Source of the DNA: Blastococcus colisei
GTDB taxonomy: Bacteria > Actinomycetota > Actinomycetes > Mycobacteriales > Geodermatophilaceae
DNA: 64,000 nucleotides
Assembly (NCBI RefSeq): GCF_006717095.1
Contig: NZ_VFQE01000001.1
Location: 310,001-374,000 of the forward strand
Direction of reading: 5' to 3'
The first letter of the stretch is position 1, and each line of letters starts with the position of its first letter. The notes below the pieces were generated by a model. It worked only from the letters and a program-made list of their open reading frames with translations, did not search any database and was not told the DNA's origin. Positions 37,203-57,863 of this stretch are shown piece by piece. The position numbers and the translations under genes were made by a program.

Positions 37203-37220
37203 GTCAACGGTTATGTTGAT
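37203..37220. promoter_or_regulatory. Island operator copy 1 (before 3-hydroxyacyl-CoA dehydrogenase)
   Basis: GTCAACGGTTATGTTGAT: inverted half-sites GTCAAC and GTTGAT with a 6-nt spacer, 34 bp before ATG 37255. One of seven matching sites in 36.5-58.7 kb. Confidence 0.8.
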
Positions 37221-37254
37221 CCTTCGCAGGAGTTCCCGGTCGGAGGAGAGCAGC

Positions 37255-38097
37255 ATGGCGAGCAGTGTCGGAGTGATCGGTGGCGGCACGATGGGCATCG
37301 GAATTGCCTACGTGTTCGCCGTCTCGGGTGCCGCGACGACCGTCGTCGAGCCCGATGCCGGCCGGATAGCGATTCTCCGGGAGGAGATCGAGCAGGCCGC
37401 CGCGGGAGGGGTCGCCCGCGGCAAGCTGGCCCCCGAGGCCGCCGCCGCCCTTGGCGGGCTGATCACCCACGCGATCTCGGCCGACGAGCTGCCCGAGGGC
37501 CTCGACCTCGTCGTCGAGACCGTCCCGGAGTCGCCCGACCTCAAGCGTGAGGTCCTCTGTGCGGCCGAGTCGCGCGGTCCCGCTGTCCTGGCCAGCAACA
37601 CCAGCGCGCTCTCGATCGACGAGCTCGCCACGTCGTTGACGGAGCCCGAGCGCTTCCTCGGACTGCACTTCTTCAACCCGGTCTGGTCGATCCCGGTGGT
37701 CGAGGTGGTCCGTGGCGCGGCCACCAGCCCGCAGACGCTCGACGCGGCGCTGGCCTCGGTGCGGGGGATCGGCAAGGAGGCGGCTGTCGTCCGCGACATG
37801 CCCGGCTTCGCGACCAGCCGGCTCGACGTGGTGGCGGCCCTCGAGGCGATCCGCATGGTGGAGACCGGTGTCGGCGAGCCCGCCGACATCGACCGAGCCA
37901 TCCAGCTCGCCTACCGGCACCCGGTGGGGCCGCTACGGCTGAGCGACATCGTCGGCCTGGACGTGCGCCTCCACATCGCGCGCAACCTCGAGCAGGCGCT
38001 CGGGCCGCAGTTCACCCCGCCCCGACTTCTCGTCGACAAGGTGGAGGCCGGCGAGCTCGGCCGCAAGACCGGCCGCGGCTTCTACGACTGGGACTGA
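37255..38097 (+). CDS. 3-hydroxyacyl-CoA dehydrogenase
   Basis: A 280-residue NAD-dependent dehydrogenase of the 3-hydroxybutyryl-CoA/HADH type. It has the Rossmann motif VIGGGTMGIGIAYVFA, the conserved NTSALSIDELA, the catalytic His in GLHFFNPVWSIPVVEVV with Asn, and the C-terminal dimer domain with GPLRLSDIVGLDV and GRKTGRGFYDWD. It oxidises 3-hydroxyacyl-CoA to 3-ketoacyl-CoA in beta-oxidation. ATG 37255 follows GGAGGAG. It belongs to the island regulon by its upstream operator. Confidence 0.93.
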   Translation: MASSVGVIGGGTMGIGIAYVFAVSGAATTVVEPDAGRIAILREEIEQAAAGGVARGKLAPEAAAALGGLITHAISADELPEGLDLVVETVPESPDLKREVLCAAESRGPAVLASNTSALSIDELATSLTEPERFLGLHFFNPVWSIPVVEVVRGAATSPQTLDAALASVRGIGKEAAVVRDMPGFATSRLDVVAALEAIRMVETGVGEPADIDRAIQLAYRHPVGPLRLSDIVGLDVRLHIARNLEQALGPQFTPPRLLVDKVEAGELGRKTGRGFYDWD

Positions 38098-38138
38098 CGG
38101 CGGCTGCTCGTTGACGTGCGGGCGCTCGCTCGCCTATC

Positions 38139-38156
38139 GTCAACTGTACTGTTGAC
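38139..38156. promoter_or_regulatory. Island operator copy 2 (before acyl-CoA dehydrogenase)
   Basis: GTCAACTGTACTGTTGAC, perfect inverted half-sites extended by C and G on either side, 34 bp before GTG 38191. The same spacing to the start as copy 1. Confidence 0.85.
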
Positions 38157-38190: not shown

Positions 38191-39381
38191 GTGGGCGGGC
38201 AGCCGATCGGACTGGGCCGGGCGTCGCTGATCTCTAACACCAGCGACGAGCACCGCAACCTGCGCGAGAGCGTGGCCAAACTGGTCGCGGGCTACGGACG
38301 CGCCTACTTCCAGGACGTCGTCGCCAAGGGGCAAAAGGCCGACGCGCTGTGGGCCGACATGGGAGCGGCCGGCTTCCTCGGGGTCCACCTGCCCGAGGAG
38401 CACGGCGGCGGTGGCGGCGGGCTGGCCGACCTCGCCGTGGTCATCGAGGAGATGGCCGCGCAGGGCTGCCCGATGTTCATGATCGTCATCAGCCCGGCGA
38501 TCTGCGGTTCGGTGCTCGCGGCACACGGCACCCCGGAGCAGAAGCAGCGCTACCTGCCGGGCATCGCCGACGGCACCTTCCGCATGGCGTTCGCGATCAC
38601 CGAGCCCGATGCCGGCTCCAACACCCACAAGATCACCACGACGGCGCACCGGGACGGCGACGGCTGGCGGTTGCGGGGGCAGAAGTACTGGACCTCCGGC
38701 GTCGACGAGTGCCAGGCCCTTTTGGTCGTGGCCCGCGACGCCGACCCGGGCCCCGACGGCCGGAACACGCTCTCGCTGTTCATCGTCCCGACCGACGCCC
38801 CCGGCCTGAGCTTCCAGCAGCTCGACTCGGCGCTGCAGCTGCCCGAGAAGCAGTTCACCACCTTCTTCGACGACGTCCCCGTCGAGCGCATCGGCCTGGT
38901 CGGTGCCGAGGGCGAGGGGCTCAAGCAGGTCTTCGCCGGCCTGAACCCGGAACGCGTCGCGGCCGCCTGCATGGCGAACGGCATCGCTCGGTACGCGCTG
39001 GCCCGCGGCGCCCAGTACGCCCGTGAGCGCATTGTCTGGAAGGCGCCGATCGGCGCCCACCAGGGCGTGGCGCACCCCCTGGCCAAGGCATACATCGACG
39101 TGGAGCTCGCCCGGCTGATGACCATGCGCGCGGCGACCATGACCGACCAGGGGCTTGACGCGGCCGAGGCCGGCAACATCGCGAAGTTCGCAGCCGGCGA
39201 CGCCTGCGTCCAGGCGCTGGACCAGGCGATCCAGGTGCACGGCGGCAACGGGCTGTCCAACGAGTTCGGCCTGGCCGACCTCTGGTTCATCGGCCGCATG
39301 TTCAAGACCGCGCCGGTGAGTCGCGAGATGGTCCTCAACCACATCGCCCAGCACAGCCTCGGCCTACCGAAGAGCTACTGA
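38191..39381 (+). CDS. Acyl-CoA dehydrogenase (IVD/LCAD-type active site)
   Basis: A 396-residue acyl-CoA dehydrogenase. It has AITEPDAGSNTHKITT and IQVHGGNGLSNEFGLAD. The position of the usual C-terminal catalytic Glu (the EGT motif) reads FKTAPVS, so that Glu is missing. Instead a Glu in helix G, GLNPERVAAACM, lies where isovaleryl-CoA and long-chain acyl-CoA dehydrogenases keep their base. This suggests branched or bulky acyl-CoA substrates. I chose GTG 38191 because GGAGG lies 6 nt upstream; GTG 38171 is possible. The AMP-ligase gene follows after 29 nt. Confidence 0.88.
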   Translation: MGGQPIGLGRASLISNTSDEHRNLRESVAKLVAGYGRAYFQDVVAKGQKADALWADMGAAGFLGVHLPEEHGGGGGGLADLAVVIEEMAAQGCPMFMIVISPAICGSVLAAHGTPEQKQRYLPGIADGTFRMAFAITEPDAGSNTHKITTTAHRDGDGWRLRGQKYWTSGVDECQALLVVARDADPGPDGRNTLSLFIVPTDAPGLSFQQLDSALQLPEKQFTTFFDDVPVERIGLVGAEGEGLKQVFAGLNPERVAAACMANGIARYALARGAQYARERIVWKAPIGAHQGVAHPLAKAYIDVELARLMTMRAATMTDQGLDAAEAGNIAKFAAGDACVQALDQAIQVHGGNGLSNEFGLADLWFIGRMFKTAPVSREMVLNHIAQHSLGLPKSY

Positions 39382-39410: not shown

Positions 39411-40946
39411 GTGTCCGCAACCCTCTCGGGACTGATCCGTGACCTCGGGGCCGCCCGCCCGGCTGCGCCCGCCGTCTCCACGGGCGGGCAGACGGTGACC
39501 TTCGGCCGGCTCGACGAGCGCAGCTCCCGGGTGGCGCAGGCACTGCTGCAGGCAGGGGTCGGCCCGCAGGACCGGATTGCCGTCCTCGACAAGAATGCGC
39601 CCACTTTCTACGAGGTGACGTTCGGCGCGGCCAAGGTCGGGGCGGTCACCGTCGGGCTGAACTTCCGGCTGGCGACGCCCGAGATCGCGGCGATCGTCGC
39701 CGACGCCCGCCCCCGGGTCGTCGTGGTGGCGCCGGAGTTCCGTGCGCTGCTCGCCGACGTGGGTCCCGACGGCCCCCGCGTCGTGCAACTCGGCGAGGAG
39801 TACGAGGCGTGGCTGGCCGCGGCGCCGGCGGAGGACCCCGGCGCGGAGGCCGACCCCGACGACGTCGTTCTGCAGCTGTACAGCTCTGGGACGACCGGCC
39901 GCCCCAAGGGGGCGATGCTGACTTCGGCGAACCTGCTGTTCACCCCTCGCATGGGCCGCGAGTTCTACGGCATGGGTCCTGAGACGGTGAACCTCGTGCC
40001 CTCACCGCTGTTCCACATCGGGGGGATCGGCTACAGCCTCACGGCCATGGGGCTGGGTGGGCACACCGTCCTGGTGCGGGACGTCGATCCCGCAGGGGTG
40101 CTCGCGCTCATCGAGCGTCACCGGGTGACGCACACGTTCCTGGTCCCCGCCGTCGTGCAGATGCTCGCCGAGAGCCCGGCGCTCCCGGGCACGGACCTCT
40201 CGAGTCTGCGGCGCATCGCCTACGGCGGGGCGCCGATGGGGGAGACCCAGCTGCTGAAGGCCATGGCGCTGCTCGGTTGCGACTTCATGGGCGTGTACGG
40301 GATGACCGAGACCGCCGGCAGCGTCACGGCGTTGGCTCCGGACGACCACGACCCCCGCGGTCCGCGGGCGGCGCTGCTGCGGTCGGTCGGTCGCCCGCTG
40401 CCGTGGCTGGACCTGCGCGTGGTCGATCCCACGACAGGCGAGGACGCGCCGGTCGGCGGCGTCGGCGAGATCTGGGTGCGCTCGGGCCAGAACACCGTCG
40501 GCTACTGGGGGCTGCCCGAGCTGACCGCGGAAACCCTCGTCGAGGGTGGCTGGCTGCGCACCGGTGACGCGGCCTACCTCGACGACGAGGGGTACGTGTA
40601 CATGCACGACCGGATGAAGGACATGGTGGTGTCTGGCGGGGAGAACATCTATCCCGCAGAGGTCGAGAACGTCCTCTACGCACATCCGGAGGTGCTCGAG
40701 GTCGCGGTCATCGGCGTCCCGTCCGACCGGTGGGGCGAGACAGTGAAGGCGGTCGTCGTCCCGCGGCCGGGCGCCGCTCTCGACGCGGACGACCTGATCG
40801 CGTTCGCGCGGGAGCGGCTGGCGCACTACAAGTGCCCCACCACCGTCGACTTCGCCGGCGAACTTCCCCGAAACGCCTCCGGAAAGGTGCTCAAGAAGGT
40901 GCTGCGGGAGCCGTTCTGGGCCGGTGTCGGCCGAAAGGTGAACTGA
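39411..40946 (+). CDS. Acyl-CoA synthetase (AMP-forming, FadD-like)
   Basis: A 511-residue ANL-superfamily acyl-CoA ligase. The P-loop is YSSGTTGRPKGAML, followed by VYGMTETAG, the hinge TGDAAYLDDEGYVYMHDRMKDM, GGENIYPAEVENVL and a C-terminal catalytic Lys in NASGKVLKKVLR. It activates a carboxylic acid released earlier in the pathway to its CoA thioester. Length fits FadD3/FadD13-like or medium-chain ligases. It is probably co-transcribed with the acyl-CoA dehydrogenase upstream and the SnoaL-like gene 2 nt downstream. Confidence 0.92.
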   Translation: MSATLSGLIRDLGAARPAAPAVSTGGQTVTFGRLDERSSRVAQALLQAGVGPQDRIAVLDKNAPTFYEVTFGAAKVGAVTVGLNFRLATPEIAAIVADARPRVVVVAPEFRALLADVGPDGPRVVQLGEEYEAWLAAAPAEDPGAEADPDDVVLQLYSSGTTGRPKGAMLTSANLLFTPRMGREFYGMGPETVNLVPSPLFHIGGIGYSLTAMGLGGHTVLVRDVDPAGVLALIERHRVTHTFLVPAVVQMLAESPALPGTDLSSLRRIAYGGAPMGETQLLKAMALLGCDFMGVYGMTETAGSVTALAPDDHDPRGPRAALLRSVGRPLPWLDLRVVDPTTGEDAPVGGVGEIWVRSGQNTVGYWGLPELTAETLVEGGWLRTGDAAYLDDEGYVYMHDRMKDMVVSGGENIYPAEVENVLYAHPEVLEVAVIGVPSDRWGETVKAVVVPRPGAALDADDLIAFARERLAHYKCPTTVDFAGELPRNASGKVLKKVLREPFWAGVGRKVN

Positions 40947-40948
40947 TC

Positions 40949-41728
40949 ATGGAGGGCGCTCCGGCCGGAGCCATCCACCCGCTCGTGCGGCTGGCCCAGC
41001 GGTTCACCATCGACTGGCTCGACCGCGCCGACGGTTCCGTGCCGCCGCAGATCATGACGCCGGACTATCAGGTGCACATCGGCGGCATCGATCTCGAGGG
41101 CCTCGAGGCCTATGCGCCGGCGACCCTCGGCCAGCTCACCCAGTTCCCCGGTCTGCAGCTGACGGTCCACGACCTCGTGACCACCGGCGACCGGCTGGCG
41201 CTGCACTTCACTGAACACGGCGCGTCCGCGCGCCACGAGGGGCGGCCCGCGGCCTGGGCCGGTGTCGCCCTCTTCCGCTGGGACGGTGAGCGGCTGGCCG
41301 AGAACTGGACGCAGGAGGACTACGCCGCCCGTCGTCGCCAGCTGGCCGACGGGCAGTCCGACCCCGTCGCGGCGCCCATGGTCGCGCCGTGGACCGTGAC
41401 GCCGGCCGCATCCGACCCGACCGCCGAGGTCGTGGTGCGGGACTGGCTTGCCACGGCCGCCCCGGGTGGCGGCGACGTCCGCTGGGACGACGGCCGGGAC
41501 GGGCCGCTGATCGCGCCGACCGGCGCCGGGGTCGTGGAAATCTTCTCGGTCGGCTCGCGGGTCGCCTTCGCCGCCACGCAGACGGGCCGCTTCCTCGGCG
41601 AGGGCGGGAGTGACGAACCGGTTCGCCTCGGACTGGCTGGCCTGGTCGACGTCGTCGACGGTTCGGTGGCACGGGGTGTCGTGATCAGCGACCGTCTGGG
41701 GCTGCTCCGCGCGCGCTCGAGGGGCTGA
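40949..41728 (+). CDS. Tandem SnoaL/NTF2-like protein
   Basis: A 259-residue protein. Residues 1-130 form a SnoaL-like cone (FTIDWLDRADGSVPPQIMTPDYQVHIGG, then LTVHDLVTTGDRLALHFTEHG and a final WTQEDYAARRRQLA), and the second half repeats a weaker NTF2-like pattern (VVRDWLATAAPGGG, then FSVGSRVAFAATQTG). SnoaL relatives are isomerases, cyclases, hydratases or ligand carriers. It starts 2 nt after the acyl-CoA synthetase stop, so it acts in the same pathway; its role is not known. Confidence 0.7.
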   Translation: MEGAPAGAIHPLVRLAQRFTIDWLDRADGSVPPQIMTPDYQVHIGGIDLEGLEAYAPATLGQLTQFPGLQLTVHDLVTTGDRLALHFTEHGASARHEGRPAAWAGVALFRWDGERLAENWTQEDYAARRRQLADGQSDPVAAPMVAPWTVTPAASDPTAEVVVRDWLATAAPGGGDVRWDDGRDGPLIAPTGAGVVEIFSVGSRVAFAATQTGRFLGEGGSDEPVRLGLAGLVDVVDGSVARGVVISDRLGLLRARSRG

Positions 41729-41834: not shown

Positions 41835-41852
41835 GTCAACAGAGTGGTTGAC
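41835..41852. promoter_or_regulatory. Island operator copy 3 (before SDR and Liv transporter genes)
   Basis: GTCAACAGAGTGGTTGAC, perfect half-sites with A and T flanks extending the symmetry. It lies 125 bp before the SDR start, the longest distance of the seven, in the 249-bp gap after the SnoaL-like gene. Confidence 0.8.
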
Positions 41853-41977: not shown

Positions 41978-42790
41978 GTGGCCCAGCACACGACGCGAGG
42001 CGGTGCCGTCCTCGTCACCGGTGCGGCGTCGGGCATCGGCGAGGCGGCCGCACGGCTGCTCGCGGCACGGGGGCAGCACGTCGTCGTCACGGACCGGGAC
42101 GGCGAAGGCGCCGCGGCGGTGGCCGCCGACATCGAGCGCGCGAGCGGGTCGGCCGAGTCCGTGTGCATCGACGTCGCGGACGACGACTCCGCGCGGCGTG
42201 CGTTCGACGAGCTGCGCGGGCGGGGTGTCGCGGTCGACGGGTTGGTCAACAGCGCGGGAGTCGCCAGCCGCTACCGGTTCCAGGACATGCCGGTCAGCGA
42301 GTGGGAGCGCGTCCTGGCCGTTAACCTCACCGGCACCATGCGCGTGACGCAGCTGGTGGTGGCCGACCTGCTGGCGCGCGGCGCCGGTGGCGCCGTCGTA
42401 AACGTGGCGTCGGTGATGGCGCACTTCGCGGCCCCCAACCTGGCCTCCTACGTCGCGTCCAAGGGCGGGATCGCGATGCTCACCCGGGCGACTGCGCTCG
42501 AGCTGGCTGCCCACGGCATCCGGGTCAACGCGGTGAGCCCGGGCTACGTGGAGTCCGGCATGACCGTCCGGGGATTCGCCGTCCCGAGGTTCCGCGACGC
42601 CGTCCTCGCCCGCACGCCGATGGGCCGCTTCGGCACCCCCGGCGACATCGCCGGGGTGATCGCCTTCCTCCTGTCTCAGGACGCCGGCTTCCTCACCGGT
42701 CAGGTCATCCCCGTCGACGGCGGCATGTCAGCGGGCGACGCGTCTCTCGCGTCACCGTCGGCCGACGAGCTGGCAGCGGTGTCCCGGTGA
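41978..42790 (+). CDS. Short-chain dehydrogenase/reductase
   Basis: A 270-residue classical SDR. TGAASGIGEAAARL is the cofactor motif, VNSAGVAS replaces the common NNAG, NVASVMAHF supplies the Ser, and YVASKGG the Tyr and Lys of the catalytic set. The C-terminal LTGQVIPVDGGMS is typical. An Asp after strand 2 (VVVTDRDG) suggests NAD rather than NADP. It would oxidise an alcohol to the ketone, or the reverse, in the island's pathway, possibly supplying the substrate of the monooxygenase. GTG 41978 follows GGAGGAG. Confidence 0.9.
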   Translation: MAQHTTRGGAVLVTGAASGIGEAAARLLAARGQHVVVTDRDGEGAAAVAADIERASGSAESVCIDVADDDSARRAFDELRGRGVAVDGLVNSAGVASRYRFQDMPVSEWERVLAVNLTGTMRVTQLVVADLLARGAGGAVVNVASVMAHFAAPNLASYVASKGGIAMLTRATALELAAHGIRVNAVSPGYVESGMTVRGFAVPRFRDAVLARTPMGRFGTPGDIAGVIAFLLSQDAGFLTGQVIPVDGGMSAGDASLASPSADELAAVSR

Positions 42791-42875: not shown

Positions 42876-44069
42876 ATGAGCAGGTCCACGAGGTTCGCGA
42901 TCGGCATCGCGATCACCGCCACCGTCGTGAGCGGGTGCGGCGGCGGGTCCGACGATGCCGGAGGTGGCGCCGAAGCGGCGTCGTCCGACGAGCCCATCGT
43001 CATCGGGGCCTCCGTCTCGCTGACCGGCCCCTACGCCTCGAGCGGCGCCAACGTGTCCAACGGGTACCAGCTCGCGGTCGACCAGATCAACGAAAACGGT
43101 GGCGTGCTGGGCCGCCAGCTGGAGCTCGACCTCCAGGACGACCAGAGCGACGCAGGCATCGTCAGCCGCCTCTACACCGAGTTTCTCGGCACCGACGAGG
43201 TCGACGCCGTCCTCAGCCCGTACGGCAGCGCCCTGTCCGGACCGGCCGCCCAGCTCGCCGAGCGGTACCAGACTCCCATGGTGCACAGCCAGACGTCGTC
43301 GGCCGCCGTGTTCGAGGGCACGGAGTGGAGCGTCATGGCCGGACTCGGCCCTGGCGACGAGGTGCTGGCGCAGGTGCCGGCGTTCGCCGTGGAGGCCGGG
43401 TACACCGACATCACCCTGGTCAACAACGACCTCGACGCCTTTAGCGCCATCTGCGACGGCGTGGAGGCGGCGATCGAGGACGCCGGCGCCACCCTGGTCG
43501 ACCGCATCGAGTACGCCGCCGCAACCAGCGACTTCTCCTCCACGGCCCTCCGGATCTCCGAGGGTGCCCCCGAGGTCGTCGTCATGTGCTCGGCGATCCA
43601 GGACTCGATCGGCCTGACCCGGGCGCTGGACCAGCAGGGCTTCCGTCCGGCCGTGGTCGCCTCGCCGACCGCCGTGGACCCGGCCTTCGCCGAGTCGCTC
43701 GGTGCACTGGCCGAGAAGGCCGTCGGGTACACGCAGTTCGCGCCCGCTCTCGGTTACGAGGGGTCCGAGGAGTTCGTCGAGGGCTACGAGGCCGAGCACG
43801 GCACGGTGAACACCCAGGCCGCCGGCGCCTACGCCACCGTCCAGGTGCTGGCCGCTGCCATCGAGGAGGCTGGCTCCACCGAGAAGGAGGCCGTGAACAC
43901 CGCGCTCCACGAGGGCACGTTCGAGACCATCCTGGGTGAGTACAGCGTCGACGAGAACGGCGTCCAGACCGGTTACGAGCCGGTTCTGTTCCAGTGGATC
44001 GGCGGCGAGCAGGTCATCGTCTACCCGAGCGACGTCGAGGGCGCCGTCGAGCCCCAGCTGCCCTACTGA
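42876..44069 (+). CDS. Branched-chain amino acid-type ABC transporter substrate-binding lipoprotein
   Basis: A 397-residue LivK/Leu-Ile-Val-type periplasmic binding protein. The signal peptide ends in the lipobox VVSGC (Cys21), followed by a Gly/Ser/Asp linker and the mature domain beginning IVIGASVSLTGPYASSGANV. Paralogues of this family often bind aromatic acids, amides or other catabolic substrates rather than amino acids; here the context of a degradation island suggests it captures the pathway's substrate. AAGGAG precedes ATG 42876. It leads a four-gene transporter unit ending at 47623. Confidence 0.9.
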   Translation: MSRSTRFAIGIAITATVVSGCGGGSDDAGGGAEAASSDEPIVIGASVSLTGPYASSGANVSNGYQLAVDQINENGGVLGRQLELDLQDDQSDAGIVSRLYTEFLGTDEVDAVLSPYGSALSGPAAQLAERYQTPMVHSQTSSAAVFEGTEWSVMAGLGPGDEVLAQVPAFAVEAGYTDITLVNNDLDAFSAICDGVEAAIEDAGATLVDRIEYAAATSDFSSTALRISEGAPEVVVMCSAIQDSIGLTRALDQQGFRPAVVASPTAVDPAFAESLGALAEKAVGYTQFAPALGYEGSEEFVEGYEAEHGTVNTQAAGAYATVQVLAAAIEEAGSTEKEAVNTALHEGTFETILGEYSVDENGVQTGYEPVLFQWIGGEQVIVYPSDVEGAVEPQLPY

Positions 44070-44103
44070 CCGGCAGCGGTGACGGCGAGGAGAGGGGCGG
44101 GGC

Positions 44104-44967
44104 GTGACCTACGTACAGGTGGTGCTCAACGGCATCCTGCTGGGCGGCTTCTACCTCCTGATGGCGCAGGGGCTGAATCTGGTCTTCGGTGTCATGGGGA
44201 TCGTGAACCTGGCCCACGGCGCGTTCATCGTGCTGGGTGGCCTGGGCGTCTTCAGCCTGTACGAGGCCGGGGTGAACCCGTTCCTCGGCCTGGTCATCGT
44301 CCTGATCGCGGGGGCGGCGCTCGGTGCGCTGGTCCAGTGGGCGGTCATCGAGCGGATCCGCGGGACGGCGAAGCAGCACGAGCTGCTGACCCTGATGGCG
44401 ACGTTCGGGCTGTCCTACATCCTCATCAACATCGCGCAGCAGGTCTGGGGTTCGAACTACCGGACGATCCCCTTTCTGCAGTCGGCGTTGACGGTGGGCC
44501 CGTTCCGCTTCTCCCTCTCCCTGGTGGTCGGGGTCGCGCTCGCTGCGGTCATCACGCTGAGCATCGCGTTCTGGCTCACCCGGACCCGCGCCGGCATGAG
44601 CTTGCGGGCGCAGGCGCAGAGCCCGGTGGGGGCCGGGGCGTGCGGGATCAATCCCCGCAGGCTCCGGCTGGTCGGGTTCAGCGTGGGAGCGGCGGTCGCC
44701 GCGGCGGCCGGGATGCTGCTGGTCATGACCCAGCCGATCGCCCCCCAGGAGGCTACGAACTTCACGATCGTGGCGTTCGTGGTCATCGCCCTGGGCGGGC
44801 TCGGCAACTACAAGGGCGCCGTCGCCGGTGCCGTCCTGGTGGGGGTGGTCCAGACTCTCGCCGGCTACCAGATGGGTGCCGTCATCCAGGGCGCGGCGCC
44901 CTACCTGATGCTGATCCTGGTGATGCTCTTCCGGCCCGCCGGGCTGCTCACGAGGAAGGCTGCCTGA
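44104..44967 (+). CDS. LivH-type ABC transporter permease
   Basis: A 287-residue permease with about eight helices and the LivH pattern VLNGILLGGFYLLMAQGLNLVFGVMGIVNLAHG at the start, and the EAA-like loop VGAGACGINPRRLRLVGFSVG that contacts the ATPase. It forms the membrane pore with the LivM part of the next protein. Start GTG 44104; its TGA overlaps the next ATG by one base. Confidence 0.93.
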   Translation: MTYVQVVLNGILLGGFYLLMAQGLNLVFGVMGIVNLAHGAFIVLGGLGVFSLYEAGVNPFLGLVIVLIAGAALGALVQWAVIERIRGTAKQHELLTLMATFGLSYILINIAQQVWGSNYRTIPFLQSALTVGPFRFSLSLVVGVALAAVITLSIAFWLTRTRAGMSLRAQAQSPVGAGACGINPRRLRLVGFSVGAAVAAAAGMLLVMTQPIAPQEATNFTIVAFVVIALGGLGNYKGAVAGAVLVGVVQTLAGYQMGAVIQGAAPYLMLILVMLFRPAGLLTRKAA

Positions 44968-46862: not shown

Positions 46863-47623
46863 TGAAGCTCGGTCGAGGGTCCGCCGTCTCCAGGGTGGAC
46901 GACACGGGCGCCGGCCCCGCGCTGGAGGTCACCGACCTCCAGGCCGGCTACGGCGCGCTACGCGTGCTGCACGGCATCACCCTGAGCGTCGCCCCCAACG
47001 AGGTGGTCGGCGTGCTGGGGGCCAACGGGGCCGGGAAGACCACCCTGCTGAGAGCGATCTCCGGCGCCGTCCGCCCCCAGGGGGGTTCGGTCGTCCTCCA
47101 CGGGCGGACCGTCACGGGGATGCCGGACTACGAGCTGACCCGGGCCGGCGTGGGTCATGTGCCCAGCGGTCGGGAGCTGTTCGCCGACCTGAGCGTTGAC
47201 GACAACCTGATGATGGGCGCCCACTCGGTCCCCGCCGCGCGCGCCGGTGAGCTGCGGGATCGGGTCCTGGAGCTGTTCCCCGCCCTCGGGTCGATGCTGG
47301 ACCGGCGGGCCGGCGCCCTGTCCGGCGGCGAGCAGCAGATGCTGGCGTTCGGCCGGGCGCTGATGACAGACCCGTCCTTGCTGCTGCTCGACGAGCCGTC
47401 GACCGGGCTGGCTCCGGCGATCGTGGCCTCGTTGTTCGACGCGTTGCGACAGCTGATCGCCGAGGGCGGCATGAGCGTGGTCCTCGTGGAGCAGAACGCA
47501 GGGTTGGCCCTCGAGGTGGTCGAGCGTGCCTTCGTCCTCCGCCAAGGCCGGATCGTCCTGGCTGGGACGGCTGCGGATCTGGGGAACGACACCCAGCTGG
47601 TCGACGCCTATCTGGGGGCTTGA
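46862..47623 (+). CDS. LivF-type ABC transporter ATPase
   Basis: A 253-residue ATPase with all motifs intact: Walker A GANGAGKTTLL, VPSGRELFADLSVDDNL (the LivF Q-loop region), signature LSGGEQQMLAFGRAL, Walker B LLLLDEPSTGLAP and switch region VVLVEQNAGLAL. It pairs with the ATPase half of the upstream fusion, in which the signature is altered, so the two nucleotide sites are probably unequal. The ATG overlaps the fusion gene's stop by one base. A 178-bp gap without a gene follows. Confidence 0.93.
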   Translation: MKLGRGSAVSRVDDTGAGPALEVTDLQAGYGALRVLHGITLSVAPNEVVGVLGANGAGKTTLLRAISGAVRPQGGSVVLHGRTVTGMPDYELTRAGVGHVPSGRELFADLSVDDNLMMGAHSVPAARAGELRDRVLELFPALGSMLDRRAGALSGGEQQMLAFGRALMTDPSLLLLDEPSTGLAPAIVASLFDALRQLIAEGGMSVVLVEQNAGLALEVVERAFVLRQGRIVLAGTAADLGNDTQLVDAYLGA

Positions 47624-49500: not shown

Positions 49501-49518
49501 GTCAACGTTGGTGTTGAC
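49501..49518. promoter_or_regulatory. Island operator copy 4 (between monooxygenase and esterase)
   Basis: GTCAACGTTGGTGTTGAC, perfect half-sites. It lies 58 bp upstream of the monooxygenase start (minus strand) and 82 bp upstream of the chosen esterase start (plus strand), so one site may control both. Confidence 0.85.
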
Positions 49519-50593: not shown

Positions 50594-51736
50594 TCACAGC
50601 AGCTCGAGGATCGTGGCGTTGGCCTGGCCGCCGCCCTCGCACATCGACTGCAGGCCGTAGCGGATTCCCTGGTCCCGCATGTGGTGGACCATCGTGGTCA
50701 TGATCCGAGCGCCGCTGCCGCCGAGTGGGTGACCCAGGGCGATCGCTCCGCCGAGCGGGTTGAGCGCCTTGTCGTCCGCCCCGATGTCGTGCAGCCACGC
50801 CAAGGGCACCGAGGCGAAGGCCTCGTTGATCTCGAAGACGCCGATCTCGTCCAGGCGCAGGCCGCTGCGGTTGAGCACCTTGCGGGTGGCCGGGATGGGG
50901 GCGGTGAGCATCTTGATGGGGTCGTCACCGGCCAGCGCGACGCTGTGCACCCGGGCGATCGGTGTGAGACCGAGCTCCCGCGCCTTGTCGCTGGTGGTCA
51001 TGAGGAGCGCGGCGGAGCCGTCGGAGATCTGGCTGGCATTGCCCGCGCTGACGACGCCGTCGGCCTTGAAGGGAGTCTTGAGCCCGGCGAGGCCCTCGAG
51101 CGTCCCGCCGCGGCGGATGCCTTCGTCGACCTCCACGACGGTGCCGTCCGGCGCCGTCGCCGGCGCGATCTGGGCGGTGAACCGGCCGTCGTCCTGCGCG
51201 GTGGCGGCGCGCTCGTGGGACCGCAGCGCGAATTCGTCGAGCTGGGTGCGCGAGAGGCCCCACTTCTCGGCGATCATCTCGGCGCCGATTCCCTGGTTGG
51301 GGAACATGCCGTAGCGCTCCAGGAAGCGCTCGCCGAGGGGGCTCTGGTCAGCCAGGGACGAGCCCATCGGCACCCGACTCATCGACTCGACACCACCGGC
51401 CACGACGACGTCGTAGTGACCGGCGACCAACCCGGCGGCGGCGAAGTGCACGGCCTGCTGGGACGAGCCGCACTGACGGTCGACGGTGGTCCCGGGCACG
51501 CTCTCCGGCCAACCGGCGGCGAGGACGGCGTTGCGGGCGATGTCGTAGGTCTGCTCCCCGACCTGCGAGACACACCCCCAGACGACGTCGTCGACGTGTA
51601 CGGGGTCCACGCCGGCGCGGGAGACGAGTGACTCCAGGACGTGTGCGGACAGGTCGGTCGGGTGGATGCCGGCCAGACCGCCGTTGCGCTTGCCCACGGG
51701 CGTGCGCACCGCCTCGACGATGACTGCGTCGCGCAT
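50594..51736 (-). CDS. Acetyl-CoA acyltransferase (thiolase)
   Basis: A 380-residue degradative thiolase. The acyl-accepting Cys is in TVDRQCGSSQQAVH (about residue 90), the His in ALGHPLGGSGAR and the second Cys in QSMCEGGGQAN; INEAFAS is also conserved. It cleaves 3-ketoacyl-CoA with CoA in the last step of beta-oxidation; FadA5-like thiolases of steroid catabolism look similar. ATG 51736 is the start and operator copy 5 lies 49 bp upstream. Confidence 0.93.
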   Translation of the reverse strand: MRDAVIVEAVRTPVGKRNGGLAGIHPTDLSAHVLESLVSRAGVDPVHVDDVVWGCVSQVGEQTYDIARNAVLAAGWPESVPGTTVDRQCGSSQQAVHFAAAGLVAGHYDVVVAGGVESMSRVPMGSSLADQSPLGERFLERYGMFPNQGIGAEMIAEKWGLSRTQLDEFALRSHERAATAQDDGRFTAQIAPATAPDGTVVEVDEGIRRGGTLEGLAGLKTPFKADGVVSAGNASQISDGSAALLMTTSDKARELGLTPIARVHSVALAGDDPIKMLTAPIPATRKVLNRSGLRLDEIGVFEINEAFASVPLAWLHDIGADDKALNPLGGAIALGHPLGGSGARIMTTMVHHMRDQGIRYGLQSMCEGGGQANATILELL

Positions 51737-51785: not shown

Positions 51786-51803
51786 GTCAACACCGTAGTT
51801 GAC
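51786..51803. promoter_or_regulatory. Island operator copy 5 (before thiolase)
   Basis: GTCAACACCGTAGTTGAC, perfect half-sites with a 6-nt spacer, 49 bp upstream of the thiolase start, in the gap after the FAH-family gene. Confidence 0.85.
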
Positions 51804-51830: not shown

Positions 51831-52754
51831 TCAGTGCAAGGGTCGGACTGGCGGGGCCGGCTGGATCGTCGTCTCGACCGCGCCCAGAAGGTCCACTTCG
51901 AGACGCACGCGGTCGCCGGGCCGGAGCCAGGGGCGGGTCTCCGCTCCGTGCACCGCCGACAGCTCGAGGATGCAGCCGGTCCCGACCGTGCCCGTGCCGA
52001 GGACGTCGCCGGGGCGCAGCGCCGTACCCCGCGAGGCGTAGGCCAGCAGTTGGCCCACGGTCCAGTGGAGGTCGGAGAACCGCCCCTCGCTCCACAGCTC
52101 GCCGTTGACCAGCGCGCGCATCCCGACGTCGGGGGCGTTGCCGGCGCCACGGTCGGGAAGCTCGTCGGGGGTCACGAGGTAGGGGCCGAGGCTGGTGGCG
52201 CCGTCCTTGCCCTTGACCGGCCCGAGGCCCAGGGCCATCTCCCGGGCCTGGAGGTCGCGCGCGCTCCAATCGCAGAGCACGGTGTACCCGGCGACGTGCG
52301 ACTCGGCGCAGGCTGGATCGAGGTCCCGACCAGCGGCACCGACGACGATGCCGATCTCCAGCTCGTAGTCGAATGCGGACGAGCCGGGGGAGACAGCCAC
52401 CGGGTCGGTCGGGCCGCACACGGCGGCCGGGTTCGTGAAGTAGAAGACCGGGAGTTCGTACCAGTCCGGGTTCACCTCGCGTCCGAGCGCCGCGCTGGCC
52501 GTGACGACATGCTGCTCGAAGGCCATGAAGTCGCGGACCGACGGCGGCTGCGGGACGGGAGCGCGCAGCCGGACGCTGCCCTCGGGCAGCACTTCGACCG
52601 GAGCGCGGATCGCGCGGTCGGCGGCGTCGGCCAGTCGCTCCGGGGACAGCACGTCGATCAGCCGCCGGTCCGGAAGCCCGTGGAGGGCGCCGTCCTTCAC
52701 GAGGGCGACGTGATCGGTTCCGTCACGCGGGGAGACGTACGTGGCGAACCGCAC
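51831..52754 (-). CDS. Fumarylacetoacetate hydrolase-family protein
   Basis: A 307-residue FAH-superfamily enzyme. The metal ligands are in AFDYELEIGIVVG (two Glu) and YTVLCDWSARDLQAREM (Asp), with the conserved KGKDGATSLGPYLVTPDEL and GTGTVGTGCILEL. Members hydrolyse C-C bonds of acylpyruvates or decarboxylate or hydrate oxo-dienoates. In this island it might cleave a ring-opened diketone-type product. GTG 52754 lies 2 nt after the MBL-fold gene stop, so the two are one operon. Confidence 0.9.
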   Translation of the reverse strand: MRFATYVSPRDGTDHVALVKDGALHGLPDRRLIDVLSPERLADAADRAIRAPVEVLPEGSVRLRAPVPQPPSVRDFMAFEQHVVTASAALGREVNPDWYELPVFYFTNPAAVCGPTDPVAVSPGSSAFDYELEIGIVVGAAGRDLDPACAESHVAGYTVLCDWSARDLQAREMALGLGPVKGKDGATSLGPYLVTPDELPDRGAGNAPDVGMRALVNGELWSEGRFSDLHWTVGQLLAYASRGTALRPGDVLGTGTVGTGCILELSAVHGAETRPWLRPGDRVRLEVDLLGAVETTIQPAPPVRPLH

Positions 52755-52756: not shown

Positions 52757-53695
52757 TCAGGCCCGGCAGGTCAGCGGTCGACCACCGTTGTAGGCGACCA
52801 TGTCGCGGAGTGCGGCGCCGACGTCGATGCGTGCCCCCCGGGGCGCCCCGTCCAGTTCTGCGTAGGCACGGTGGAGGTTGCCGACGATGCGTTCGGCGTC
52901 GGTCCAATCGGCGTACGGGCCGAGGTCCGTGCCGCGGGCGGCCTCCAGGGGTGCCACCCCGGCGGCATGTGCGTCGCGGGCTACGTCGTCGAGCCAGCGC
53001 AGGTAGCCGAGGACGTCGTCCACGAGGCCGGCGCCCGCAACTGGGCCGTGACCGGGAACGATGGTCTGTGCACCCAGCGGCCCCACCACCTGCTCCAGCA
53101 CCTCGATGGCGCCTGCGAGCGAGCCCATGACCAGGAACGGCGTCCCGCCCGAGAAGAGGAGATCGCCGGCGAAGAGGGTGTGGCGTTCGGGGATCCAGAC
53201 GACCGAGTCGTTGGTGGTGTGCGCCGGGGTGCCCACGTGCAGGACCTCGCAGCGCAGGTCGTCCACCCAGAGCGTGACGCCCTCGGTGTAGGTGAGGAAC
53301 GGCGGCGCCAGGCGGATCTCGCCGAAGTCGAACGGCGTCCAGAACTCCTGGGTGGCCATCACCCCCGCGGCGATGACGCCGGCCCGGGTGCCCTCGTGCG
53401 CCACGATGGTCGCGTCGTCGAAGAGCCAGTTGCCATGCGTGTGGTCGCCGTGGTGGTGGGTGTTGATCAACGTCTTCACCGACCGGGGGGTCACGGTGCG
53501 GATGGCCTCGAGGTAGGCGCGGGTGCGCCGCTCGGTGGCGCAGCTGTCGACGCTCGTCACCCCCGACCTGCCCACGAGTAGGCCGGTGTTGTTGATCCAC
53601 CACGTGCCGTCGGGCTGGACGTAGGCGAAGACGTCCTCGCTCACCTCCTGCAGCATCCCCGGCTGCAGGACCGGATCGGCGGTCGTCGAGCTCAT
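52757..53695 (-). CDS. MBL-fold metallo-hydrolase
   Basis: A 312-residue metallo-beta-lactamase-fold hydrolase. The metal-binding motif THHHGDHTHGNW is complete, followed by GTPAHTTNDSVVWIP, FAGDLLF and IVPGHGPV, which provide the remaining His and Asp ligands. It probably hydrolyses an ester, lactone or thioester intermediate. It begins 24 bp from operator copy 6 and is followed by the FAH gene after 2 nt. Confidence 0.9.
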   Translation of the reverse strand: MSSTTADPVLQPGMLQEVSEDVFAYVQPDGTWWINNTGLLVGRSGVTSVDSCATERRTRAYLEAIRTVTPRSVKTLINTHHHGDHTHGNWLFDDATIVAHEGTRAGVIAAGVMATQEFWTPFDFGEIRLAPPFLTYTEGVTLWVDDLRCEVLHVGTPAHTTNDSVVWIPERHTLFAGDLLFSGGTPFLVMGSLAGAIEVLEQVVGPLGAQTIVPGHGPVAGAGLVDDVLGYLRWLDDVARDAHAAGVAPLEAARGTDLGPYADWTDAERIVGNLHRAYAELDGAPRGARIDVGAALRDMVAYNGGRPLTCRA

Positions 53696-53719: not shown

Positions 53720-53737
53720 GTCAACCTAGCCGTTGAT
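53720..53737. promoter_or_regulatory. Island operator copy 6 (before MBL-fold and FAH genes)
   Basis: GTCAACCTAGCCGTTGAT, with the same GTTGAT variant half-site as copy 1. It overlaps the last codons and stop of the BtuF-like gene and lies 24 bp before the MBL-fold start. It implies that MBL-FAH has its own promoter in addition to read-through from the mutase operon. Confidence 0.75.
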
Positions 53738-54505
53738 CGCCGGTCGGATGGCCGCGGTCAGCTCGGCACGGGCGGTGGCCAGCGACGGCCCGTACCAGGT
53801 GAGCAGCCTGCCGGAGATCAGTGTGGTCGGCGTCCCGGGAAAGGCCTCCGGCCCGTCGGCGGCGGTGAAGGCGTACGGCTCGTCCGGCAGCAGGACCAGC
53901 CCGGCCCCTTGGAGCTCGGCCAGCTCCCGGTGTGGGTAGCGTTCGTCGCCCGCCGCCCAGACGTTCTCCAGACCCAGCCGGGCGAGCACGTCGCCGGTGA
54001 ACGTCCGGGCGCCGACCACCATCCACGGATCCCGCCAGATCGGGACGCACACCCGTGTCGGTGGCAGCGGCGCGGCCCCGGACCACGCGTGCGCCGCGGC
54101 CGACAGCCACGATGGCGTCCCGACGTCGAGCACGTCGTCGAACAGTCGGTGCAGCGAGGCCAGAGCCTCGTCGACGGACTCGATCACGGTCACCCAGACC
54201 GGCACGCCGGCAGTGCGCAGCCGTTCCACGTCGAGCTGCCGGTTCTCCTCCCGGTTGACCACCACCAGGTCCGGGTGCAGCGCCTCGATCGCTGTCCGGT
54301 CGGGGTTCTTGGTCCCGCGCACCCGGACCACGTCCAGTCCGGCCGGGTGGGTGCACCAGTCGGTGGCCCCGACGAGACGGTCGGGCACCGTCACGGCGAG
54401 CGCCTCGGTGATCGACGGGACCAGCGAGACCACCCGCCGAGGCGGCGCCTGAAGGTGGACAGCCGTGCCGAGGTCGTCGGTCAGGGATCGGGGACGGGCC
54501 GTCAT
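53726..54505 (-). CDS. Cytosolic BtuF-like helical-backbone metal/cobalamin receptor
   Basis: A 259-residue protein with the fold of cobalamin and siderophore binding proteins: VVSLVPSITEALAV, RLVGATDWCTHP, TAIEALHPDLVVVN and a long central helix. Unlike BtuF it has no signal peptide or lipobox (N-terminus MTARPRSLTDDLGTAVHLQ), so it should stay in the cytoplasm. It starts one nucleotide after the stop of the cobalamin-dependent mutase IcmF. I infer that it binds or delivers cobalamin for the mutase. Such signal-less proteins are known in actinobacteria but their role is unclear to me. Confidence 0.75.
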   Translation of the reverse strand: MTARPRSLTDDLGTAVHLQAPPRRVVSLVPSITEALAVTVPDRLVGATDWCTHPAGLDVVRVRGTKNPDRTAIEALHPDLVVVNREENRQLDVERLRTAGVPVWVTVIESVDEALASLHRLFDDVLDVGTPSWLSAAAHAWSGAAPLPPTRVCVPIWRDPWMVVGARTFTGDVLARLGLENVWAAGDERYPHRELAELQGAGLVLLPDEPYAFTAADGPEAFPGTPTTLISGRLLTWYGPSLATARAELTAAIRPAING

Positions 54506-54506: not shown

Positions 54507-57500
54507 TCAGACGTTGCGCCGGTACTGTCCGCCGACCTCGAAGAAGGCCTCGCTGATCTGGCCCAGGGAGCAGGACCGGACGGCGCTCATCAGCTCGGCG
54601 AAGACGTTCCCGCCGTCCAGGGCGACCCCCTGCAGGCGAGCGAGCGCCACCGGCGACTCGTCGGCGTTGCGGGACTGGAAGTCGGCCAGCCGGACCAGCT
54701 GGGACTGCTTCTCCTCCTCGGTGGCCCGGGCCAGCTCGACGGTGGGCGGCGGGGCGTCGCCCCGGTCGGGAGCGAGGAAGGTGTTGACCCCCACGATCGG
54801 CAGGCTGCCGTCGTGCTTGCGGTGCTCGTAAAGCATCGACTCGTCCTGGATCCTGCCCCGCTGGTAGCCGGTCTCCATCGCCCCCAGCACCCCGCCACGC
54901 TCCGCGATCCGGTCGAACTCGGCCAGCACGGCCTCTTCGACGAGGTCGGTGAGCTCGTCGATGACGAAGGACCCCTGGAGGGGGTTCTCGTTGCCGGAGA
55001 GGCCCCATTCCTTGTCGATGATCATCTGGATCGCCAGGGCCCGGCGGACCGAGTTCTCGCTCGGCGTCGTCACGGCCTCGTCGAACGCGTTGGTGTGCAG
55101 ACTGTTGGCGTTGTCGTAGATCGCGCAGAGCGCCTGCAGCGTCGTCCGGATGTCGTTGAAGTCCATCTCCTGGGCGTGCAGCGACCGGCCCGAGGTCTGC
55201 ACGTGGTACTTCAGCTTCTGCGAGCGCTCGTCCGCTCCGTAGCGCTCGCGCATGGCCACCGCCCAGATGCGGCGGGCCACCCGGCCGATCACCGAGTACT
55301 CCGCGTCCAGCCCGTTGGAGAAGAAGAACGACAGGTTGGGCGCGAAGTCGTCGATGTCCATCCCGCGGGCGAGGTAGCTCTCCACGTAGGTGAAGCCGTT
55401 GGCCAGCGTGAAGGCGAGCTGGCTGATGGGGTTCGCCCCGGCCTCGGCGATGTGGTACCCCGAGATCGACACCGAGTAGAAGTTCCGCACGCCGTTGTCG
55501 ATGAAGTACTGCTGGATGTCCCCCATCGCCCGCAAGGCGAACTCGGTGGAGAAGATGCAGGTGTTCTGGCCCTGGTCCTCCTTGAGGATGTCGGCCTGCA
55601 CCGTGCCGCGGACGTTGGCCAGCACCCAGGCGCTGATCTCCTCGGCCTCGGACGCGTCGGGGTCGCGGCCCTCCTCGGCGCGGAAGGCGTCGAAGCGCTG
55701 GTCGATCGCGGTGACGAGGAACATCGCGAGGATCGTCGGAGCGGGGCCGTTGATCGTCATGGACACCGAAGTCGTCGGCGAACAGAGGTCGAAGCCGGAG
55801 TACAGGACCTTCATGTCCTCGACCGTCGCGATCGAGACGCCCGACGTGCCGACCTTGCCGTAGATGTCGGGGCGCTGGTCGGGGTCGCGGCCGTACAGCG
55901 TCACGGAGTCGAAGGCCGTGGACAGCCGGGTCGCCTCGCCGCCGCTCGACAACAGCTGGAAACGCCGGTTGGTGCGGAAGGCGTCGCCCTCGCCGGCGAA
56001 CATCCGGGCGGGGGCTTCGCCCTCGCGCTTGAACGGGAAGACCCCGGCGGTGAAGGGGAAGAAGCCGGGCAGGTTCTCCGAGCGCAGGAAGCGCAGCAGC
56101 TCGCCGTGGTCGGTCGTCCGCGGCAGGGCGACGCGGGGCACCTTGTTGCCCGACAGCGTCGTGCGCGTCAGCTGCGTCCGGATCTCGTTGCCGCGGACGG
56201 AGTAGACGAGCTCGTCGCCGGTGTACTCGGCCACGCGGGCCGGCCACCGGTCGAGTTGCTCGCGGACGGCCGGCAGCACCTGCTGGTCGGTCTCGGCCAG
56301 CAGCTCGGCGAGGCGGTCCCCTGCAGTGGTGCCGAGTACGTCGGCCGCCGTCTGGAGGTGTTGCCGGCGGCGAACGACGTCGGCCTGGGCGGTCGTTTCG
56401 CGGTGGTAGATCCGCACCGCCTCGGTGATCTCTGCCAGGTACCGGGACCGGGCCGAGGGAACCACGCCGGTCAGGCCGGAGGAGGCGCGCACGTCGACAG
56501 CGGGCAGGACGCCGTCGGTGATCGGCAGGCCCTGGACGGCGAGCAGGCTCCGGAGTTCCTGGTACAGGGCGGTGACGCCGTCGTCGTTGAACCGTGCGGC
56601 GCTGGTGCCGAAGACAGGCATCTGCTCCCAGGCCACGCCGAAGGCGGCCCGGTTGCGGACCATCTGGCGGGCGACGTCGCGGCGGGCGTCCTCCGCCCCC
56701 CGCCGCTCGAACTTGTTGATCGCCACGACGTCCGCGAAGTCGAGCATGTCAATCTTCTCGAGCTGGGATGCGGCGCCGAACTCCGGCGTCATGACGTACA
56801 GCGAGACGTCGCTGAACGGAATGATGGCGGCGTCACCCTGCCCGATTCCGGGGGTCTCCACGATCACGAGGTCATACCCGGCGGCCTTCACCGCCGCTAT
56901 CACGTCGTCGAGGTGTTCTGGCACCTGCGCCCCGGCGGTCCGGGTGGCCATCGACCGGAAGTAGGTGCGGTTGCGGTCGCCGCTCTCCAGCGCGTTCATC
57001 CGGATCCGGTCGCCGAGGAGCGCGCCACCGCCGCGGCGACGGGTCGGGTCGACGGCGAGGACGGCGATGCGGAGCTTGTCCTCCTGGTCCAGCCGGATCC
57101 GGCGCAGCAGTTCGTCGGTCAGCGAGGACTTGCCGGAGCCGCCGGTGCCGGTGATCCCGAGGACAGGAACAGTCCGTCCGGCGGCGATGGCGCGGACGCG
57201 TTCGGCGAGCTCGGGGGAGCGGCCGCTCTCCAGGAGCGTGATGGCGCGCGCCAGTGCGGCCGGGTCACCGCCGAGCAGGGCCTCGGTGTCCGGCGCGGAA
57301 TCCGCGAGGTCGACGTCGCAGGCGCGGATCAGCTCGTTGATCATGCCGGGGAGGCCCAGGCGCTGGCCGTCCTCGGGAGCGAAGATGGTGACGCCCCGCT
57401 CCCGAAGGGTGTCGATCTCGTCGGGGACGATCACGCCGCCGCCGCCGCCGAAGACCTGAACGTGGCCGGCCCCCTGCTCGGCAAGCCGTTCGACCAGGTA

Positions 57501-57749
57501 GCTGAAGTACTCGACGTGCCCGCCCTGGTAGGACGAGAGGGCGATGCCTTGGACGTCCTCCTCCAACGCCGCCCGGACGACGGAGTCCACGCTCCGGTCG
57601 TGACCGAGATGCACCACCTCGGCGCCTTGGCTCTGCAGCATCCGCCGCATGATGTTGATCGCCGCGTCGTGTCCGTCGAACAGACTGGCCGCCGTCACGA
57701 AACGGACGGGATGCGAGGGGACGTGCAGGTCGGACGTCGGAGTGGCCAT
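54507..57749 (-). CDS. icmF: Fused isobutyryl-CoA mutase (IcmF-like), cobalamin-dependent
   Basis: A 1080-residue protein with the IcmF order: N-terminal B12-binding domain (about 1-145, with SLFDGHDAAINIMRRML carrying the base-off His), a MeaI/ArgK-type GTPase chaperone domain (about 185-430, P-loop GITGTGGSGKSSL, then VETPGIGQGD and INKFERRG), a linker, and the substrate-binding TIM barrel (about 540-1080, TLYGRDPDQRPDIYGKVGTSG). It interconverts isobutyryl-CoA and butyryl-CoA, or a related branched acyl-CoA such as pivalyl-CoA. The GTPase helps load and protect the cofactor. ATG 57749 matches the family start; operator copy 7 lies 96 bp upstream. Confidence 0.93.
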   Translation of the reverse strand: MATPTSDLHVPSHPVRFVTAASLFDGHDAAINIMRRMLQSQGAEVVHLGHDRSVDSVVRAALEEDVQGIALSSYQGGHVEYFSYLVERLAEQGAGHVQVFGGGGGVIVPDEIDTLRERGVTIFAPEDGQRLGLPGMINELIRACDVDLADSAPDTEALLGGDPAALARAITLLESGRSPELAERVRAIAAGRTVPVLGITGTGGSGKSSLTDELLRRIRLDQEDKLRIAVLAVDPTRRRGGGALLGDRIRMNALESGDRNRTYFRSMATRTAGAQVPEHLDDVIAAVKAAGYDLVIVETPGIGQGDAAIIPFSDVSLYVMTPEFGAASQLEKIDMLDFADVVAINKFERRGAEDARRDVARQMVRNRAAFGVAWEQMPVFGTSAARFNDDGVTALYQELRSLLAVQGLPITDGVLPAVDVRASSGLTGVVPSARSRYLAEITEAVRIYHRETTAQADVVRRRQHLQTAADVLGTTAGDRLAELLAETDQQVLPAVREQLDRWPARVAEYTGDELVYSVRGNEIRTQLTRTTLSGNKVPRVALPRTTDHGELLRFLRSENLPGFFPFTAGVFPFKREGEAPARMFAGEGDAFRTNRRFQLLSSGGEATRLSTAFDSVTLYGRDPDQRPDIYGKVGTSGVSIATVEDMKVLYSGFDLCSPTTSVSMTINGPAPTILAMFLVTAIDQRFDAFRAEEGRDPDASEAEEISAWVLANVRGTVQADILKEDQGQNTCIFSTEFALRAMGDIQQYFIDNGVRNFYSVSISGYHIAEAGANPISQLAFTLANGFTYVESYLARGMDIDDFAPNLSFFFSNGLDAEYSVIGRVARRIWAVAMRERYGADERSQKLKYHVQTSGRSLHAQEMDFNDIRTTLQALCAIYDNANSLHTNAFDEAVTTPSENSVRRALAIQMIIDKEWGLSGNENPLQGSFVIDELTDLVEEAVLAEFDRIAERGGVLGAMETGYQRGRIQDESMLYEHRKHDGSLPIVGVNTFLAPDRGDAPPPTVELARATEEEKQSQLVRLADFQSRNADESPVALARLQGVALDGGNVFAELMSAVRSCSLGQISEAFFEVGGQYRRNV

Positions 57750-57845
57750 GGTGCTCCTGTCGGGAGGCCGCAGGTGTTGCGGCCATGTGCGTGGACGTCG
57801 AGGAACCGTGGACGGTGCGCCGGCAAGTGACGCGGAACAGCCTAC

Positions 57846-57863
57846 GTCAACTATAGTGTTGAC
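57846..57863. promoter_or_regulatory. Island operator copy 7 (between icmF and enoyl-CoA hydratase)
   Basis: GTCAACTATAGTGTTGAC, perfect half-sites with C and G flanks. The spacer TATAGT is itself a good -10 hexamer, suggesting that the operator covers the promoter of the hydratase gene, whose GTG start is 31 bp away; icmF starts 96 bp away on the other strand. Confidence 0.85.

Follow-up and report, generated by a model that had tools for sequence, protein, structure and literature searches.

The window analyzed here, a stretch of 64,000 nucleotides from Blastococcus colisei (C1:310001-374000 of the genome labelled G000), contains an island of catabolic genes headed by a gene for a TetR-family regulator (Table 1). 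The initial annotation had reported seven copies of an 18-bp palindrome, GTCAAC-N6-GTTGAY, in this island and had proposed that the TetR protein reads them. A pattern scan (GTCAACNNNNNNGTTGAY) gave 12 strand hits at seven places, exactly those reported, with a constant spacer of 6 nt and with five of the seven copies being perfect inverted repeats. Dinucleotide-preserving shuffles of the window gave a mean of 0.02 strand hits. Based on sequence comparison, the palindrome is very probably the landing site of the neighboring TetR repressor for a little-known ketone-splitting pathway.

When the whole genome (5,160,276 bases in 4 contigs) was scanned, the only exact matches were the seven island copies, and a reversed control pattern gave no exact match. 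The flanking regions are thus free of the site, as had been claimed, and the random copies that a genome-wide scan might have revealed were not found. At up to two mismatches, the palindrome matched 452 forward places compared to 132 for the reversed control; loose matches were therefore uninformative, and we used only the exact or one-mismatch pattern. Elsewhere in the genome, at G000:C1:284746-284809, two near-palindromes (CTCAACCN4GGTTGAC-like and TTCAACCN4GGTTGAG) lie 28 bases apart directly before a gene that reads by eye as ArsR/SdpR type. They look like the site of another regulator, which would explain one of the one-mismatch matches in the genome.

Six of the seven copies are intergenic. 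The seventh (53720 to 53737) covers the last 12 bases of the gene for a TroA-like protein, the stop of which lies at 53726, and precedes the start codon of a metallo-beta-lactamase-fold (MBL) hydrolase gene. With start codons chosen by hand, the gaps between site and start codon range from 24 to 125 bases, and two divergent pairs, the Baeyer-Villiger monooxygenase (BVMO) and esterase genes and the icmF and enoyl-CoA hydratase (ECH) genes, share one site each. Because the gene for the fumarylacetoacetate-hydrolase-type enzyme (FAH) directly follows the MBL gene and the TroA-like gene directly follows icmF, the seven sites would, assuming plain cotranscription, cover every island unit except tetR. 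A promoter-like sequence, TTGACG-N18-TATCGT, ends on the copy before the acyl-CoA dehydrogenase (ACAD) gene, its last 2 bases overlapping the first two of that site. It was the only match between 36300 and 42000, the span scanned, which holds copies 1 to 3 (shuffle mean, 0.3).

Table 1. Genes and putative operator copies of the island, with positions in the 64,000-nucleotide window; gaps are in bases from site to start codon
Feature	Position	Strand	Basis
TetR-family regulator (TetR_N + TetR_C_24), presumed reader of the palindromes	36487..37161	+	Pfam
Putative operator copy 1, before HCDH (gap 34)	37203..37220		pattern scan
3-Hydroxyacyl-CoA dehydrogenase (HCDH)	37255..38097	+	Pfam
Promoter-like TTGACG-N18-TATCGT	38111..38140	+	pattern vs shuffles
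Putative operator copy 2, before ACAD (gap 34)	38139..38156		pattern scan
Acyl-CoA dehydrogenase (ACAD)	38191..39381	+	Pfam
AMP-forming acyl-CoA ligase (ACSL)	39411..40946	+	Pfam, NCBIfam
SnoaL-like protein	40949..41728	+	Pfam
Putative operator copy 3, before SDR and ABC transporter genes (gap 125)	41835..41852		
Short-chain dehydrogenase (SDR)	41978..42790	+	Pfam
Branched-chain-amino-acid-type ABC transporter	42876..47623	+	Pfam
ABC binding protein	42876..44069		
ABC permease	44104..44967		
ABC permease-ATPase fusion (start not fixed)	ending 46862		
ABC ATPase	46862..47623		
Baeyer-Villiger monooxygenase (BVMO), fingerprint FRGQVLHTADWP	47802..49442	-	Pfam, solved homologues
Putative operator copy 4, between divergent BVMO (gap 58) and esterase (gap 82)	49501..49518		
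Hormone-sensitive-lipase-type (HSL) esterase, HGGG + GDSAG	49601..50557	+	Pfam, NCBIfam, motif
Thiolase	50594..51736	-	Pfam
Putative operator copy 5, before thiolase (gap 49)	51786..51803		
Fumarylacetoacetate-hydrolase-type enzyme (FAH)	51831..52754	-	Pfam
Metallo-beta-lactamase-fold hydrolase (MBL)	52757..53695	-	Pfam, NCBIfam
Putative operator copy 6, before MBL (gap 24); 12-base overlap with TroA-like gene	53720..53737		
TroA/BtuF-like binding protein	53726..54505	-	Pfam, NCBIfam
Fused isobutyryl-CoA mutase IcmF	54507..57749	-	NCBIfam equivalog
Putative operator copy 7, between divergent IcmF (gap 96) and ECH (gap 31)	57846..57863		
Enoyl-CoA hydratase (ECH)	57895..58704	+	Pfam, NCBIfam

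The product of the gene at 36487 is a TetR-family protein by both of its domains (PF00440, 52.2 bits against a cutoff of 24; PF17932, 61 bits against a cutoff of 26.4), and an alignment-based structure model was mainly helical (mean predicted local distance difference test score, 86.9). None of the 18 NCBIfam models listed for named TetR regulators reached its cutoff (best, 42.7 bits against 150). When all 18 island proteins, TetR among them, were scanned against Pfam, no second regulator emerged, in agreement with the initial annotation, and no second TetR of the same kind was found in the genome at an E value of ≤1e-15 when 26 of 44 candidates were scored. Among proteins of solved structure, those closest in sequence include KstR2 and chains annotated as fatty acid metabolism regulator; the best PDB match is 3vpr (E value, 6.3e-22), which we take to be PfmR of Thermus thermophilus.

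We then compared the distribution of sites and regulator across 397 genomes of the order, the window's genome included, accepting TetR at an E value of ≤1e-25 and scoring no more than the 7 best candidates from each genome. One or more perfect palindromes were present in 90 genomes and three or more, by manual count, in 16; TetR was likewise present in 16. The regulator was found in 13 of the 16 genomes with at least three palindromes (12 without the window's genome) compared to 3 of the 381 others (Fisher P = 3.8e-19, for related genomes that are not independent cases). These three TetR-bearing genomes, G079, G118, and G338, hold none, one, and one perfect palindrome, respectively. Joint conservation of the sites and the TetR orthologue, proposed initially as a check, thus came out in favor of the pairing, with one case against it, G079, among eight close family orthologues. 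In a further genome (G057:C51:174858-175292), a second, broken copy of the TetR gene (63% identity; two TGA and one TAG inside) shares its contig with the intact gene and lies near further sites.

An alignment of the TetR protein was also searched against 84,980 species genomes, and the best 80 of 98 relatives, with 83% to 36% identity, are referred to here as named loci. These come from Geodermatophilus, Modestobacter, Klenkia, Pseudonocardia, Frankia/Protofrankia, Nocardioides, Acidimicrobiales, Conexibacter, and Cryobacterium, as well as from Halieaceae, SAR92, Sphingomonas, Novosphingobium, Betaproteobacteria, and others. The exact site was present in 49 of the 80 loci and a site with at most one mismatch in 70; outside the eight Geodermatophilaceae loci, the counts were 43 and 63 of 72. 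An open count of all hexamer inverted repeats with spacers of 0 to 12 in these 72 loci ranked GTCAAC-N6-GTTGAC first, with 80 copies in 43 loci. The next-ranked repeats (33, 13, and 13 loci) were shifted readings or variants of the same palindrome, the best unrelated repeat reached 12 loci, and the GTCAAC inverted repeat at any spacer from 0 to 12 other than 6 occurred in 0 to 1 copies. When the half-sites were permuted (sample of 40), exact copies averaged 0.07 with a maximum of 1, and one-mismatch copies averaged 2.6 with a maximum of 13, compared to 103 for the real palindrome, which varied mostly at position 1. Exact sites also tend to lie outside genes: 54 of the 80 copies fell within the called-gene span, and 7 of these were inside genes compared to 38.0 expected at random, where genes were called from conservation alone.

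A quick maximum-likelihood tree of 102 TetR rows placed all 56 site-bearing rows (at most one mismatch within 1.5 kb) in one clade of 86, with a Shimodaira-Hasegawa-like approximate likelihood ratio test (SH-aLRT) support of 95. The remaining 30 rows of this clade lack a site in that range; some of them carry sites further away. The site label changed 22 times on the tree compared to 33.8 times in shuffles, and the palindrome follows the clade into Alpha-, Beta-, and Gammaproteobacteria. Plasmid homologues likewise carry exact sites within 20 to 29 kb: one in Sphingopyxis (46% identity), three in Sphingobium (33%), and two and one in two Rhodococcus plasmids (41% and 39%, respectively). Among remote homologues (26 to 32% identity), 0 of 14 had a site within 1.5 kb. 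These comparisons support the initial annotation's view that palindromes and TetR protein belong together and add that the pair spans phyla. One locus, L132 (titled MAG: Klebsiella pneumoniae isolate MH-08apr19-278), has a TetR that groups with uncultured Gammaproteobacteria bins; the species assigned to this metagenome bin is probably incorrect for the contig.

To see what the regulon holds elsewhere, conserved open reading frames (ORFs) were clustered across the 80 named loci and the window. HCDH, ACAD, CoA ligase, ECH, and the SnoaL-like protein form a core, at least three of the five being present in 34 of 80 loci. The BVMOs fall into two separate families, which never occur together in a locus. 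One or the other was found in 38 of 80 loci and in 24 of the 34 with the core, a recurrence that the initial annotation had not noted. Type I BVMOs carry the fingerprint FxGxxxHxxxW. This fingerprint was present in 17 of 24 rows of the first family, which includes the window's BVMO (FRGQVLHTADW), and in 17 of 17 rows of the second; a third flavoprotein cluster (8 loci), with the fingerprint in 1 of 8, was left out of the BVMO count. No core gene was called in 38 of 80 loci. In such loci, sites precede other oxidative genes, for example, P450, luciferase-like monooxygenase, aldehyde dehydrogenase, and cyclase-family genes. The regulator is thus linked to oxidative degradation at large, with BVMO chemistry involved at about half of the loci.

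Within the window, the BVMO matched phenylacetone monooxygenase best among solved proteins (1w4x; E value, 2.6e-183), with steroid monooxygenase and cyclohexanone monooxygenase next. IcmF scored 1903.8 bits against an NCBIfam equivalog cutoff of 1500, contains B12-binding, G-protein, and mutase domains, and matches the solved fused isobutyryl-CoA mutase over its length. ACAD had no solved match at an E value of ≤1e-70, and the SnoaL-like and MBL-fold proteins had weak solved matches only, so that these three give no hint of the substrate.

TetR-family proteins typically act as dimers that read two half-sites, repress by blocking polymerase, and are released by a small ligand. We consider it highly probable that the seven palindromes are operators at which the TetR protein represses the island until a pathway metabolite releases it. 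A dimer would bind two half-sites six bases apart, one GTCAAC per monomer, over or beside the promoters, and would repress all units except its own gene. The ligand would most likely be an acyl-CoA, since the nearest solved relatives include KstR2 and the fatty acid metabolism regulator chains. The substrate, taken up by the ABC transporter, may be a ketone or a secondary alcohol: the SDR would oxidize alcohol to ketone, and the BVMO would convert the ketone to an ester or lactone. Hydrolysis by the HSL esterase, MBL, and FAH would be followed by CoA activation by ACSL and by beta-oxidation through ACAD, ECH, HCDH, and thiolase. Because IcmF is present, the pathway may well generate a branched acyl-CoA of the isobutyryl type, which IcmF would rearrange in a B12-dependent manner. 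A p-menthane-type terpenoid would fit as a candidate substrate.

Several observations weigh against the pairing of palindrome and TetR. Selection of the named loci relied on two peptide patterns, one covering the presumed recognition helix, which biases the hit rate, and 10 of the 80 loci have no site at up to one mismatch, some of these being short contigs. The eight family loci share ancestry and hold 18 copies of the palindrome in 6 loci. Four other repeats are at least as widespread there (6 or 7 of eight loci), and the family set alone would therefore not have revealed the palindrome. Three genomes, G228, G303, and G365, hold at least three palindromes without a TetR at the threshold used. 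In G303 the palindromes are scattered, and in G228 two sites share one contig with no TetR of the same family in the 20 kb around them. Modestobacter sp. Leaf380 (G079) has the TetR at 72% identity and no exact site genome-wide, nor any site at up to one mismatch in the 30 kb around its TetR gene. It keeps a reduced island of TetR, IcmF, TroA-like, and thiolase genes, with no BVMO, ACAD, or close HCDH in those 30 kb. Finally, as first reported, the tetR promoter in the window (36100 to 36500) has no site, even at up to two mismatches, and none of seven family orthologues has one at its own tetR promoter. Outside the close family, 27 of 73 loci have a site within 300 bases upstream of tetR, and the siteless promoter in the window is thus a trait of the lineage. 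In G365, 12 places at up to one mismatch, 4 of them exact, crowd into 15 kb (G365:C2:56039-71370) and have an inner core in common, in most cases GTCAAYRCGCRYRTTGAC. The 34 kb examined there yielded no homologue of the island, and no TetR of the same family was found nearby; we take these places for a separate, dense family of repeats that probably belongs to another regulator.

The Leaf380 and G228 cases are what one would expect if an unlinked regulator read the palindrome and the TetR gene were a mere hitchhiking neighbor. We regard this as very improbable, because the palindrome keeps to a single TetR clade in both Actinomycetota and Pseudomonadota though the neighboring enzymes differ, and because the site stands before tetR itself in the 27 loci above. 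It is also improbable that TetR acts as an activator or mixed regulator at the same operators. Some TetR proteins, such as FasR, are described as activators, and the site positions vary, copies 3, 4, and 7 lying 82 to 125 bases ahead of some starts. However, the sites before the ACAD, HCDH, ECH, and MBL genes lie 24 to 34 bases ahead of the starts, and the ACAD site overlaps the promoter-like −10 element, the usual place for a repressor. That the palindromes reflect chance, composition bias, or a mobile repeat is barely conceivable. GTCGAC-like words are common in this genome, as the loose matches indicate, but all 7 exact matches fall in the island against none for the control, and the shuffles, the open repeat scan, the permuted half-sites, and the avoidance of gene bodies outside the family all exclude chance. 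A mobile repeat is excluded because the inner 6 bases and the flanks vary from copy to copy.

A repressor bound to these operators would resemble several known systems. A TetR-type gene beside a BVMO gene is familiar from EthR/EthA and MekR/MekA; no EthR-named chain was among the best 60 of 140 profile matches of the TetR protein to solved chains. KstR2, the repressor of late steroid catabolism in actinobacteria (solved as 4w1u and 4w97), is likewise a TetR protein with palindromic operators before several catabolic units with CoA enzymes. It is a distant sequence relative (E value, 3.2e-15), and its 14-bp site is given as AnCAAGnnCTTGnT (PMC3068626), which differs from GTCAACN6GTTGAC. KstR, also a TetR repressor, controls a large lipid regulon from an operator overlapping the −10 element, and its printed site, TnnAACnnGTTnnA, has another core and spacer (PMC1995591). 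This agrees with the initial annotation, in which the palindrome was not recognized as either site. The branched-chain keto-acid regulator BkaR is an autoregulated TetR repressor of a short catabolic cluster, with the two-fold symmetric site GTTA(N)T(N4)A(N)TAAC (PMC3920632); this motif and the EdcR operator TnnCnnTACnAnTnGTAnnGnnA (PMC8700777) also differ from the palindrome. By their printed motifs, the palindrome is therefore distinct from the sites of KstR, KstR2, BkaR, and EdcR.

LiuQ and FadP are TetR-type regulators of CoA-based catabolism with motifs derived from comparative genomics; of the Proteobacteria covered in that study, only betaproteobacteria are reported to have them (PMC5343134). 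For QsdR, two palindromes are mentioned (PMC6262395), and a single GTCAAC in the AlkX excerpt lies inside a primer (PMC9430723). A T. thermophilus HB8 homologue on plasmid pTT27 adjoins acyl-CoA dehydrogenase, ligase, and SDR genes, a likeness to the island; it differs in having about 31% identity and no GTCAACN6GTTGAC at up to one mismatch in its 16.5-kb locus. According to PMC12239570, the progesterone pdc TetR EGO55_13850 stands beside a BVMO gene and its homologue Saro_3709 is placed on pNL2; our search found no plasmid homologue in Novosphingobium aromaticivorans at an E value of ≤1e-15, in a collection for which the presence of pNL2 is unverified. A description of the palindrome was not found in the open-access literature as far as its texts were accessible, subscription papers and regulon databases being outside the search. 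We take the TetR catabolic repressor with its type of operator as known and the present TetR-site pair, unusual in its spread across phyla, as new.

Tentatively, and with slightly less than even confidence, we propose that the TetR-operator pair marks one widespread way of eating natural ketones by Baeyer-Villiger cleavage. If so, the ketones would be alicyclic or branched, for example, terpenoids, and one TetR clade with a near-invariant operator would have been kept across Actinomycetota, Pseudomonadota, and one record titled Acidobacteriia, with the BVMO type, transporters, and side enzymes exchanged in the meantime. This would be a clean case of a catabolic regulator with a site fixed across phyla and a changing set of controlled enzymes. 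The palindrome would then serve as a genome-mining tag for BVMO-based pathways in bacteria not known to have them: being exact, long, and near invariant, it could allow a plain pattern search to locate whole regulons in new genomes and could lead to further BVMO/esterase pairs that might be useful in biocatalysis. The substrate itself could be approached through the repressor, by ligand release or a reporter.

Directly behind the island, at 58739 to 60793 of the window, lies an ORF of 684 codons that reads by eye as a UvrD/HelD-type helicase.

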